A DNA stretch of 64,000 nucleotides from Ktedonobacteraceae bacterium (GTDB taxonomy: Bacteria; Chloroflexota; Ktedonobacteria; Ktedonobacterales; Ktedonobacteraceae). The stretch covers positions 1-64,000 of the forward strand of contig DASRBN010000005.1 in NCBI GenBank assembly GCA_035653615.1, read 5' to 3'. The stretch's first letter is position 1. Every line of letters begins with the position of its first letter. The notes under the pieces were generated by a model. It worked only from the letters and a program-made list of their open reading frames with translations. It searched no databases and had not been told where the DNA came from. The position numbers and the translations under genes were made by a program. Of the stretch, positions 29,455-33,083 are shown piece by piece.

Positions 29455-30324
29455 ATGACGAATCAGTTCAACGCGCCAACCGAAACGCTTTCAGCTACTC
29501 AGCGCACCATCAGCGCCGCGTTCCAGGGCGAACGTGGAGCGTTCGGCGATGAGGCCGTGCGAGCATATTTTGGCAAAGAGGCTCAACCCGTTCCTTGTCG
29601 CAGTTTCGCAGATGTGTTCCGTGCCGTTGCCACGCGCCAGGTTGAAGCCGGGCTGGTGCCTGTAGAAAATTCCCAGGCCGGCAGTATCAACGAAGTGTAC
29701 GACCTGTTGCGCCAGTATGACCTTTTCGTCACCGGGGAAATCAGCCATCCCGTCAATCACTGCTTGCTGTGCTTACCGGGTCAACAGTTGAGCGATATTC
29801 GCCGTGTCATCTCGCATCCGCAGGCGCTGGCACAGTGCGATGCTTTTTTGCGCACACTCGACGTGGAAATTGTCGCGACCTATGATACCGCCGGCAGCGC
29901 CAAAATGGTGCGACAGGAGAATCTGGTGGGGGTAGCGGCCATCGCCGGAGCTGGCGCGGCGCAATTGTATGAATTGGAGATTCTGGCCCGCGATATCCAG
30001 ACCATTAAAGATAACTATACCCGTTTTATTGCCCTGGGGCGAGAACCGGCGCGTCGTCGTGAGGGTGAGGCGAAAACCATGCTGGTGATGGCTACTGCCC
30101 ATCAACCCGGCTCTCTCTATACATGCCTCGGCGTCCTGGCCGAAAAACAGATCAACCTGCTCAAATTGGAATCCCGACCCTCGCGTCATCGCATCTGGGA
30201 ATACGTCTTCTATCTTGACTTTGAAGGCCATCGCGACGACCCACACGTGTCGGCAGCGCTGGCCGATCTAGCCGCATATACTACATTTTGCAAAGTATTG
30301 GGATCGTTTCCCAAAAATACATAA
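29455..30324 (+). CDS. pheA: Prephenate dehydratase
   Basis: Converts prephenate to phenylpyruvate, the last specific step before phenylalanine; 289 aa. The catalytic domain starts AAFQGERGAFGDEAV near residues 20-34. VPVENSQAGSINEVYDLL near 70-87 carries the conserved Glu-Asn-Ser. The TRF motif is present as DNYTRFIAL near 191-199. An ACT regulatory domain follows, with LYTCLGVLAEKQINLLKLESRPSR (positions about 225-248) containing the ESRP motif for phenylalanine feedback. The open frame begins at 29353, but GAGGAAAG precedes the ATG at 29455. No chorismate mutase domain is fused; the separate aroH gene lies convergently 12 bp away. Confidence 0.93.
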   Translation: MTNQFNAPTETLSATQRTISAAFQGERGAFGDEAVRAYFGKEAQPVPCRSFADVFRAVATRQVEAGLVPVENSQAGSINEVYDLLRQYDLFVTGEISHPVNHCLLCLPGQQLSDIRRVISHPQALAQCDAFLRTLDVEIVATYDTAGSAKMVRQENLVGVAAIAGAGAAQLYELEILARDIQTIKDNYTRFIALGREPARRREGEAKTMLVMATAHQPGSLYTCLGVLAEKQINLLKLESRPSRHRIWEYVFYLDFEGHRDDPHVSAALADLAAYTTFCKVLGSFPKNT

Positions 30325-30335
30325 AGGATAATTTA

Positions 30336-30716
30336 TCATTGATTTTTCATCTTCGCCGCCAGCCCCGGTCGCAGCGAAACCGCCTCGCGTAGATAGACAT
30401 GCTGCATTTCTGACGCGCCGCGCGTCGTATTGACGTGCAGCAGGACGCGAATGCATTTCTTCAGGCTCTGCGGCACCGGAATTTCGCGCATGCATATCAG
30501 TGCGACCTCATCCCACCCCAACGCTCGCGCTGCCTCCGCAGGAAATGCCGCGTCCACGTCCTCTGTCACCGTAAAAATGGCACTGGCAATATCTTCCACC
30601 TGCAAGTCGTTCTGTCGCACCATCAATTGTAAAAGCTCCATCGTCGCCTGTAAAATTTCTTCGCGCTCATTCCGTTCGACCGTCGTAGCCCCCCGGATAC
30701 CCCTGCAATACATCAT
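30336..30716 (-). CDS. aroH: Monofunctional chorismate mutase, AroH class
   Basis: Chorismate to prephenate rearrangement; 126 aa, the usual size of the trimeric AroH-type enzyme. [21 protein letters not shown] near the N-terminus (RGIRGATT 5-12) holds the first active-site Arg. [21 protein letters not shown] near 40-60 and [28 protein letters not shown] (positions about 67-94) contain the Arg and Cys residues of the active site. A third conserved segment [12 protein letters not shown] follows near 106-117. It is the last gene of the tyrA-DAHP synthase-aroH group, 133 bp after the DAHP synthase stop. The distance allows a separate start site, but no clear promoter is seen there. Confidence 0.9.
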
Positions 30717-30849
30717 ATCTCCTTAGAAATAGTTTGAGAAAGAGCTAGAGGCAAAAGCGAAATGCCTTCGCTCGCGCCCATTCATTCGCGGCTCCTCCCA
30801 GGAAACCAATAAATCGTGCCACTCCATTGGGGCCACGATTGCTTGAGTC

Positions 30850-31911
30850 CTAAGCAACCAGCATCTTCCCCTCCAATAGCTGGTTGATGATGCGCGTTTC
30901 ATGCACAATCGCTTGCAACTGCTCCGGAGTAATCGATTGCCGTCCATCGCACAATGCGCTGTTCGGATCGCGATGCACCTCCAGGATCAGCCCATCCGCG
31001 CCCGCGGCGATCCCCGCGCGTGACATCGTCGGCACCAGTTCGCGCCGCCCCGTGCCATGGCTGGGATCAACAATCACCGGCAGATGTGTCAGTGTCCGTA
31101 AGAGCGGAATGCAGGCCAGGTCGAGCAGGTTGCGGGTATGCGTATCAAAGCTGCGGATACCGCGCTCGCACAGGATCACATGCGGATTGCCCGCCGCCAC
31201 AATGTATTCCGCCGCCAGCAGCCATTCATCAATCGTGGCCGCGAATCCCCGTTTGAGCAGCACCGGACGCCTTCGCCTATCGCGACCCGTGGCGAACAAC
31301 AGCGGGAAGTTTTGCATATTGCGACTGCCAATCTGCAAAATGTCGGCATACTCAGCAACCGCCTCGACCATCTCCGGCTCCATCACTTCCGTAATCACCG
31401 GCAGCCCCGTCAGTTCGCGCGCCTCCGCCAGCAGTTGCAGCCCTTCGATACCCAGTCCCTGGAACTGGTAGGGAGACGTGCGTGGCTTGAACGCTCCTCC
31501 GCGTAAAATCTGCGCCCCCGCCTCCTTGACTGCCTGTGCCGTCTCCAGTAACTGCTCTCTACTCTCAACCGCGCATGGTCCCGCAATCACCATCGCTGCC
31601 GCACCGCCGCCAATGCTGACCGGTTGGCTCCTGCTCGCATCGCCCACCTGGACAACGCTCTTCCCTGCTTTAAAGGCCGAACTCACCAGTTGATATGGGG
31701 TGCGTACCTGCACGATCCCCTCCACCGCGCTCTGATTCTCAATGGCCATGCATGCCTGCGCATCCAGTTGACCATCATCCAGCACAATCAGCTCGCGTTC
31801 GTCGATAATCGTCGAGTGAGTTGGTCTCCCATTGCCGGTGATCTGGCAAAGAAGCGCCGCCAACTGGCTACGTTCCTCGCTGCTCACCCGCTCCCGAAGC
31901 GTAATAATCAT
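30850..31911 (-). CDS. aroF: 3-deoxy-7-phosphoheptulonate (DAHP) synthase, type I-beta
   Basis: First enzyme of the shikimate pathway, 353 aa. The N-terminal 75 residues form a ferredoxin-like regulatory domain, as in the Thermotoga/Bacillus-type enzymes. The barrel has [19 protein letters not shown] near 99-117, [19 protein letters not shown] near 129-147, [28 protein letters not shown] (positions about 173-200), [20 protein letters not shown], and [17 protein letters not shown] near 275-291. All metal and phosphate ligands appear present. The frame extends to 32025 inside tyrA, but AAAGGA lies before the ATG at 31911, 31 bp after the tyrA stop. It is probably under the aromatic leader-peptide attenuator upstream of tyrA. 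Confidence 0.93.
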
Positions 31912-31942
31912 AGTGTTTTCCTTTCTAAAAGTCCAATAATAG

Positions 31943-32800
31943 CTAAAAAGCGCTCCCCGATCCTCCATCCCGTATCTCTTTCGACTGCGCAAAATAGCCC
32001 TCAAGCGTATCATCACCGGTCGCAATAAGCGACCGTAGGCTCGCCAATTCCATCACCAGCGCGTCAATCCTGTCTATGATTGCCTCCCGGTTTGTTAAGC
32101 AGATGTCCCGGTACATCACCGGGCTTCCTGCCGCTAGCCGCGACATATCCCGGTAGCCGCTAGCCGCCAGTTGAGACATTCGCGCCCATTCCTCATCCTG
32201 GCCCAACATCCGCACCAATGCCGCTGAAACCACAAATGGCAGATGACTGACGCCTGCCACCAGGCGATCATGTTCCTGTGCATCCAGTACCAATGGCTGT
32301 GCTGCCAGCCCCCTTACTAGCTCGCTCATCTGTATCACAGCAGCGGTAGGCGTATCATATGCAGGCGTCAAACAATACGTACAACCCTCGAATAGTCCTG
32401 CATCAGCCGCTTCAATCCCCGAACACTCGCGCCCGGCCATCGGATGACCGCCCACGAATACCGCGTGCGCGGGCAACAATCTCCTTGCCCATTCGATGAC
32501 CTGTGCCTTCGTACTGGCTGTATCGGTCACTAATGTACCTGGCTTGAGAGCCGGCGCGATACGCTCGAACAGGGCCGGCATCGCCCCGATCGGTGTCGCC
32601 AGTATCACCACATCGGCCTGCCTGACAGCCTCCTCAGCCGTGGCAGCGCAATGCGTGATCGCGCCACGCTCCATTGCGCCACGAATAGCATCAGGATAAG
32701 CATCATACCCCGCGATTTGCCCCACCAGATTCGCCTGCCGTATGGCAAGTGCCAGCGAACCGCCGATCAGACCCAATCCCAATATCGCTATTCTCTTCAT
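31943..32800 (-). CDS. tyrA: Prephenate dehydrogenase
   Basis: NAD(P)-dependent oxidative decarboxylation of prephenate (or arogenate) in tyrosine synthesis; 285 aa. The nucleotide-binding [20 protein letters not shown] (1-20) is the Rossmann motif. [29 protein letters not shown], and [14 protein letters not shown] carry the family residues, including the catalytic His. [15 protein letters not shown] contains the second conserved His. No ACT domain follows, so feedback control would have to come through other parts or only through transcription. GTTTGAAAGGTGTTGCC precedes the ATG; a start 5 codons upstream is possible. First gene after the leader peptide and terminator. Confidence 0.92.
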
Positions 32801-32834
32801 GGCAACACCTTTCAAACAAAAACTGTGAGCAAAT

Positions 32835-32861
32835 AAAAAAGCAGAGGCTAAAATCCTCTGC
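32835..32861 (-). terminator. Attenuator terminator upstream of tyrA
   Basis: On the minus strand, AAGCAGAGG and CCTCTGCTT form a 9-bp stem around ATTTTAG, followed by a T run. It lies between the leader peptide and tyrA. Upstream segments can pair with it or with each other: CAGAGGC with GCCTCTG, GGCCTG with CAGGCC, and CCCTCCGGC in the leader ORF with GCCGGAGGG. Confidence 0.85.
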
Positions 32862-32923
32862 TTCCCTCCGGCCTGTCTTCAGGCCTCTGGAGTCGTTTTT
32901 TGCGCAACCCAAAAGGCCCTTCG

Positions 32924-32995
32924 TCAAGCCGGAGGGCTAAAATAAAACCAATATGCGTATGTGTGTTTCAGTTGGGTTCGCAAGTCAGTATTCAT
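32924..32995 (-). CDS. Leader peptide of the aromatic operon (Tyr/Trp/Phe-rich)
   Basis: A 23-residue ORF: MNTDLRTQLKHT, then Y-A-Y-W-F-Y-F, then SPPA and TGA. Six of seven consecutive codons specify aromatic amino acids. It lies between a strong promoter and a terminator ahead of tyrA. The final codons (AGC CCT CCG GCT) overlap a segment complementary to GCCGGAGGG further down. This is the classical layout of a translation-coupled attenuator: slow translation at scarce Tyr/Phe/Trp codons should change RNA pairing and prevent termination. The predicted transcription start is only about 2 nt before the ATG, so the leader may be read as a leaderless message. Confidence 0.85.
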   Translation of the reverse strand: MNTDLRTQLKHTYAYWFYFSPPA

Positions 32996-33003
32996 GATGG
33001 CAA

Positions 33004-33033
33004 ATTGTACCTGTAACTGATGCTTTTTGTCAA
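33004..33033 (-). promoter_or_regulatory. Promoter of the tyrA operon leader
   Basis: On the minus strand: TTGACA (33028-33033), 18-bp spacer, TACAAT (33004-33009). The ATG of the leader peptide starts 9 nt after the -10 hexamer. Confidence 0.8.
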
Positions 33034-33054: not shown

Positions 33055-33083
33055 TTGACATCCCCACCCCATTCCTCTAAACT
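33055..33083 (+). promoter_or_regulatory. Promoter of aroB-aroC
   Basis: TTGACA (33055-33060), 17-bp spacer, TAAACT (33078-33083). It is back-to-back with the tyrA leader promoter; the two -35 hexamers are 21 bp apart. Confidence 0.7.

Follow-up and report, generated by a model that had tools for sequence, protein, structure and literature searches.

A predicted aromatic leader-peptide attenuator with a nearly leaderless start in a Ktedonobacteraceae bacterium, and its counterparts across Chloroflexota

How might a short, aromatic-rich reading frame control the tyrA operon that it precedes in a Ktedonobacteraceae bacterium, and what is to be made of a translation start that lies almost at the point where its promoter would begin transcription? 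The window analysed here is the whole stretch of 64,000 nucleotides from contig DASRBN010000005.1 (assembly GCA_035653615.1), in which a sequence-only reading had described a promoter, a nearby ATG, a 23-residue reading frame containing Y-A-Y-W-F-Y-F and a terminator before tyrA. All of these are present, on the minus strand (Table 1). The leader-peptide attenuator for aromatic synthesis that had been proposed from them is borne out by comparison, as the hairpin, the terminator and the aromatic codons are kept across the phylum and the downstream genes match. We put at roughly 85% the probability that the tyrA-DAHP synthase-aroH operon is controlled through this leader by ribosome-mediated transcription attenuation. 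This reading draws on the recurrence of the leader, its large hairpin P1 and the terminator in the phylum, on the aromatic genes downstream and the agreement of the codons with those genes, on covariation in P1, and on modelling of ribosome positions.

The leader and its operon in the window

Table 1. Features of the leader region and operon, with window coordinates
Feature	Position	Strand	Sequence, basis and remarks
Promoter of the tyrA leader, sigma-70 type	33004-33033	-	TTGACA-18-TACAAT; consensus scan; most leaders from other Chloroflexota families have a counterpart promoter at a comparable distance
-35 box	33033-33028	-	TTGACA; 18-nt spacer to the -10 box
-10 box	33009-33004	-	TACAAT
Leader start codon	32995-32993	-	ATG, 8 nt from the -10 box; intervening sequence TTGCCATC
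Leader ORF	32924-32995	-	23 codons, MNTDLRTQLKHTYAYWFYFSPPA; ATG at 32995, TGA ending at 32924; conserved in relatives
Regulatory codons 13-19	32939-32959	-	TAC GCA TAT TGG TTT TAT TTT (Y-A-Y-W-F-Y-F); direct reading; aromatic codons here in almost all relatives
S1	32972-32983	-	TTGCGAACCCAA; lies in the early codons; can form 12 pairs with S2, with one bulge; direct reading
S2	32900-32912	-	TTGGGTTGCGCAA; within the P1 loop, partner of S1
P1, 5' strand	32925-32936	-	CCCTCCGGCTTG; overlaps the last codons and the leader stop codon
P1, 3' strand	32864-32875	-	CAGGCCGGAGGG; abuts the terminator
P3, local hairpin	32870-32885	-	GGCCTG-aaga-CAGGCC; alternative to P1; predicted in the RNA that a ribosome at the stop codon leaves exposed
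Intrinsic terminator	32835-32863	-	AAGCAGAGG-ATTTTAG-CCTCTGCTT and U-tract; follows the leader ORF and precedes tyrA
tyrA, prephenate dehydrogenase	31943-32800	-	First structural gene; ATG at 32800; PF02153 over cut-off
DAHP synthase, type I beta	30850-31911	-	Second gene; NF006421 and TIGR01361 above cut-off
aroH, monofunctional chorismate mutase	30336-30716	-	Third gene; TIGR01796, E = 4.5e-45, above cut-off
Promoter-like site of aroB and aroC	33055-33083	+	Consensus scan
SAM riboswitch RF00162	62388-62494	+	78.1 bits; sole Rfam match in the window

The promoter of the leader matches the consensus at 11 of 12 positions, and a consensus scan finds two promoter-like sites in the kilobase where 0.5 would be expected. 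With so short a gap between the -10 box and the ATG, and with transcription starting 6-9 nt past the -10, the 5' untranslated region predicted from the promoter position would be about 0-3 nt long. The leader reading frame is also unusual in its composition, being alone among the 2188 six-frame open stretches of at least 15 codons in the 64-kb window in having six aromatics in seven residues. From these codons a joint response of tyrA, DAHP synthase and aroH to Tyr, Trp and Phe would be anticipated. The TyrA product scores best at E = 7.6e-73 against the NCBIfam prephenate dehydrogenase models, which is under those models' own cut-offs, and no terminator-like sites were found between the operon genes (30250-32000).

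The leader RNA is strongly structured, with a predicted fold of -69.6 kcal/mol (z = -6.5 against shuffles). Mutually exclusive pairing segments had been claimed for it, and the claim stands in part: S1:S2 and P1 exclude each other, as do P1 and P3, but none of the pairings among S1, S2, P1 and P3 sequesters an arm of the terminator in the window. Taken in the window alone, S1:S2 is not significant by single-sequence shuffling (p about 0.24).

On the other side of the leader promoter, the same intergenic region serves the divergently oriented aroB and aroC, which have a promoter-like site of their own. Two TTGACA promoters thus stand back to back between 33004 and 33083, that of the tyrA leader on the minus strand and that of aroB on the plus strand, with their -35 boxes about 20 nt apart, and the shikimate genes on either side may share control.

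Distribution across Chloroflexota and the nearly leaderless start

Within Ktedonobacterales, no such leader was found in the regions upstream of tyrA orthologues in relatives, because there the leader precedes DAHP synthase. When the leader was used as a DNA query it matched 28 of the 47 genomes of the order, the window's own included, and gave no match in the plasmid collection. DAHP synthase is the gene directly behind the leader in the relatives with enough sequence (L051 ends at a contig end), and the placement of tyrA between leader and DAHP synthase is an exception of the window, most relatives having the leader directly before DAHP synthase and tyrA elsewhere than behind it. Alignment of the 28 leaders recovers the aromatic codons, typically FYYWFSPPA followed by the stop, the long helix P1 that takes in the leader stop codon, and the terminator, which is present in all 28 and whose GCAGAGG:CCTCTGC pairs are nearly invariant among the 26 distinct leaders. 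P1 covaries: the 28 leaders contain 34 double changes, where shuffles give 11.5 and slid controls 2-9. Loss of the aromatic codons with the hairpins kept, the pattern that the sequence-only reading had named as speaking against it, did not occur in the relatives. Two leaders of the order (L106 and L107, genus g11) have the codons FYYYFYFSPPA, and no clear promoter was found near their start.

A covariance model built from P1 and the terminator, of which the downstream gene is no part, matches 112 of 400 Chloroflexota genomes, and in the order 45 of the 47 (the two misses being genomes of 83% and 85% completeness). For gene context 60 of the phylum matches were fetched, from genomes that are drafts and with model E-values that are rough, and 59 of the 60 lie directly before aromatic-pathway or Tyr/Phe-tRNA synthetase genes. 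Since the covariance model ignores the downstream gene, this link is an independent validation. The genes behind these 59 leaders are DAHP synthase of type I beta, AroFGH-type DAHP synthase (L140, L143), aroH-DAHP synthase, tyrA, aroH-tyrA, tyrS (tyrosyl-tRNA synthetase; L100, L111, L134, L137, L142) and pheST (L117, L119). The remaining match (L150, E = 2.4e-5), with no aromatic gene downstream, was treated as false. Because the terminator is in the search model, its invariance across the phylum is partly selected for; in the order itself, plain DNA similarity had revealed it first. The aromatic codons follow the gene, being mixed F, Y and W before DAHP synthase and YY or YYY before tyrA and in the tyrS leaders L100 and L111, and leaders may be as short as 11 codons. 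The two pheST leaders, both of family f46, share the architecture and have the codon cluster His-His-Val-His-Phe, with no Phe run. Four genomes of family f4 (L095, L099, L101, L102) carry a second, diverged element before tyrA or aroH-tyrA, in addition to the DAHP synthase copy; it has Tyr codons, and its terminator stem is of the GCAGAAGC:GCTTCTGC type.

The nearly leaderless start had been noted for a single locus, and it recurs: of 59 loci, made up of the window itself and leaders from outside its family, 44 have the leader start 5-13 nt past the -10 box, a spacing that shuffled sequence would give in 12%. These distances are sharply peaked at 9-10 nt, with a mode of 9, and support a nearly leaderless start as the common state of the phylum, as judged by promoter prediction. 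In most DAHP synthase leaders of the window's own family the -10 box and the start are 33-80 nt apart, compared with 8 nt in the window and 7 nt in two tyrS leaders. A leaderless start would thus not be required for the switch, given the longer distances that prevail before DAHP synthase in the neighbouring genera of the family. In one genome survey, leaderless genes were detected in just 4 of 12 Chloroflexi genomes, where they made up about 5% of genes (PMC3160421). Two genomes of family f4 (L055 and L062) have an apparent extra, nearly leaderless upstream start together with a second, internal leader start, with a TAG-ATG overlap in L055, which suggests reinitiation.

Working of the switch and alternative explanations

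In the proposed mechanism, transcription would start within about 3 nt of the leader AUG, and a ribosome would probably load at the 5' end of the RNA, in the manner of leaderless mRNAs. A shortage of charged Tyr-, Trp- or Phe-tRNA would hold the ribosome at codons 13-19, keeping S1 in the early codons away from S2 and leaving P1 free to form ahead of it; when the amino acids are plentiful, it would reach the stop codon inside the 5' strand of P1, so that P1 would be blocked, P3 and the terminator would form and transcription would end. P1 would thus be the conformer of starvation and expression, and S1:S2 would probably serve to terminate RNA that is not translated. The reading frame, its codons, the hairpins, the conservation of these, the link to aromatic genes and the dependence of P1 on ribosome position come from sequence and computation, and the stalling, the transcription start and the way in which P1 would lower termination are inferred.

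The geometry of the leaders is consistent with such a switch. Ribosomes were placed with their leading edge 12 nt beyond the A-site codon's first nucleotide. One that stands on the aromatic cluster covers P1 in none of 82 loci and one that has reached the stop codon masks the 5' strand of P1 in all 82, and the modelled probability of P1 is above 0.5 in the stalled state and below 0.5 at the stop in 78 of the 82. S1:S2 reaches p <= 0.05 in 36 of 64 loci and is very strong in family f46; it would exclude or knot P1, and in Ktedonobacteraceae the helix takes in the start codon itself. How P1 would act on the terminator is less readily seen. A full modelled switch is obtained for the tyrS leader L100, in which P1 runs into the terminator arm (P1 and terminator at 0.99 and 0.00 when stalled, 0.00 and 1.00 at the stop), and in L111 the modelled P1 excludes the terminator in part; at most loci, the window included, equilibrium folding predicts the terminator in all ribosome states. 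In 85 of 86 loci P1 either reaches into GCAGAGG or stops 0-7 nt from it, and the helix overlaps the terminator base by at least 1 nt in 44 of the 86 when G-U pairs are counted and in 19 by Watson-Crick pairs. In the window P1 abuts the terminator and would compete at most for G-U pairs at its base. A classical antiterminator was searched for in the window and not found. Scanning the RNA upstream and downstream for duplexes with either terminator arm gave no consistent partner above shuffles, and outward extension of P1 into the 5' arm of the terminator was likewise not above shuffles (mean z +0.45). A UUUAGC:GCAGAG register considered as an antiterminator was dropped, with nothing above shuffles in the duplex or P1-extension searches. 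P1 may act by occupying the terminator base or by its position beside the terminator. A broader proposal, that aromatic attenuators of this kind form one class throughout the phylum, with a leaderless ancestral state, and that P1 in them works from directly beside the terminator without taking an arm, either by occupying the terminator base or by blocking entry to the polymerase exit channel, is tentative and in our judgement rather doubtful. Were this placement of P1 to prove the working arrangement, the near-invariance of the terminator stem would be a sign that a factor contacts it.

An alternative is that the peptide and not the codons carries the signal, with the nascent YYWFSPPA, Pro-Pro included, stalling the ribosome when an amino acid is present in free form (TnaC does this with tryptophan) and with the codons giving no report on tRNA charging. 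The C-terminal SPPA is indeed highly conserved in the DAHP synthase leaders of the order, and Pro-Pro slows ribosomes in general. Across the wider set, however, the tail behind the aromatic cluster varies along with P1 (SPPA, RCPPA, PV, PA, RRTFW, RSALW and longer), as would be expected if selection is on RNA pairing and not on the peptide, the order of the aromatics is free (YYYWW, FYYW, WWW, FFFY), and the leaders of tyrA and tyrS switch to Tyr codons, all of which makes peptide arrest improbable. The aromatic reading frame might on the other hand be incidental to a T-box, riboswitch or other ligand-binding leader, as this is a structured leader with a terminator and T-boxes exist in Chloroflexi (PMC3766115). 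Yet the frame is kept in almost all loci with codons that match the regulated gene, and no cis-regulatory Rfam family was matched at gathering score by the window leader or by 13 leaders of other lineages; T-box RF00230 had no match in the window or the 13 loci, and for the window leader the Rfam Trp, His, Leu and Thr leaders were absent both at gathering and down to E = 1, where nothing credible and only chance matches appeared. A ligand-binding leader is accordingly the most remote of the explanations weighed here.

It is also possible to suppose that the terminator is constitutive and mainly yields a small RNA or peptide that acts in trans, as rnTrpL and peTrpL of S. meliloti do besides attenuation. 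A short, terminated, leaderless transcript would be made, and the sequence of the terminator stem is more conserved than a terminator needs, but the position of the element immediately ahead of aromatic or cognate synthetase genes speaks for cis control and leaves a purely trans-acting product very unlikely; a trans role added to cis control is conceivable.

Relation to known attenuators

Leader-peptide attenuators are known mainly from Proteobacteria and Actinobacteria. The leaders described here resemble the Yanofsky-type attenuators of E. coli (pheA/pheL, trp, pheST) in their codons for the pathway product, in the terminator before the first gene, in their use for a tRNA synthetase operon, and in a stop codon placed so that the finishing ribosome blocks the upstream pairing. 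The E. coli leaders have ribosome-binding sites and a 2:3 helix that takes up one arm of the terminator, whereas in most Chloroflexota loci P1 lies beside it. For Chloroflexota we found no report of leader-peptide attenuators in the open-access literature, whose silence is no proof of absence; a 2013 survey of Rfam leaders that covered five Chloroflexi genomes suggested a gammaproteobacterial origin of amino-acid attenuator motifs (PMC3766115).

The closest parallel in the regulated gene is the aroR leader peptide of C. glutamicum (Phe-Tyr-Phe) before aroF, where, according to the account in PMC11802643 of Neshat et al. (2014), transcription rises when Phe limits and ribosomes stall. As described there, aroR is likewise an aromatic leader peptide before a DAHP synthase gene; the likeness drawn here is one of description, and the present leaders differ in phylum, in having Trp codons too and in standing also before tyrA, aroH, tyrS and pheST. 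For the start, the sequence-only reading had taken an attenuator without a ribosome-binding leader to be undescribed, which does not hold. The trpL RNA (rnTrpL) of the alphaproteobacterium S. meliloti begins with the AUG of its leader, so that a leaderless peptide is at work in a ribosome-dependent attenuator, although one that responds to Trp only, controls trpE(G) and is described with an antiterminator structure (PMC7298713). The leader peptide of C. glutamicum ilvBNC is reported to form without a ribosome-binding site, to go by the title of Morbach (2000) as cited in PMC4046766 and by PMC11857589, and Cys-rich upstream ORFs are candidates for attenuation in mycobacteria, organisms rich in leaderless messages (PMC4633059); both differ in belonging to Actinobacteria and in concerning branched-chain amino acids and Cys, respectively. 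Neither element is therefore new alone, as attenuation of a DAHP synthase is known from aroR and a leaderless attenuator ORF from trpL. A conserved Chloroflexota family, mostly near-leaderless, that also precedes tyrS and pheST would show leader-peptide attenuation to be older, or to have arisen more often, and would predict how a poorly studied phylum controls its shikimate pathway. Translation start, regulatory codons and hairpin geometry vary independently of one another among these leaders, which provide a natural series for testing what leaderless initiation contributes to attenuation.
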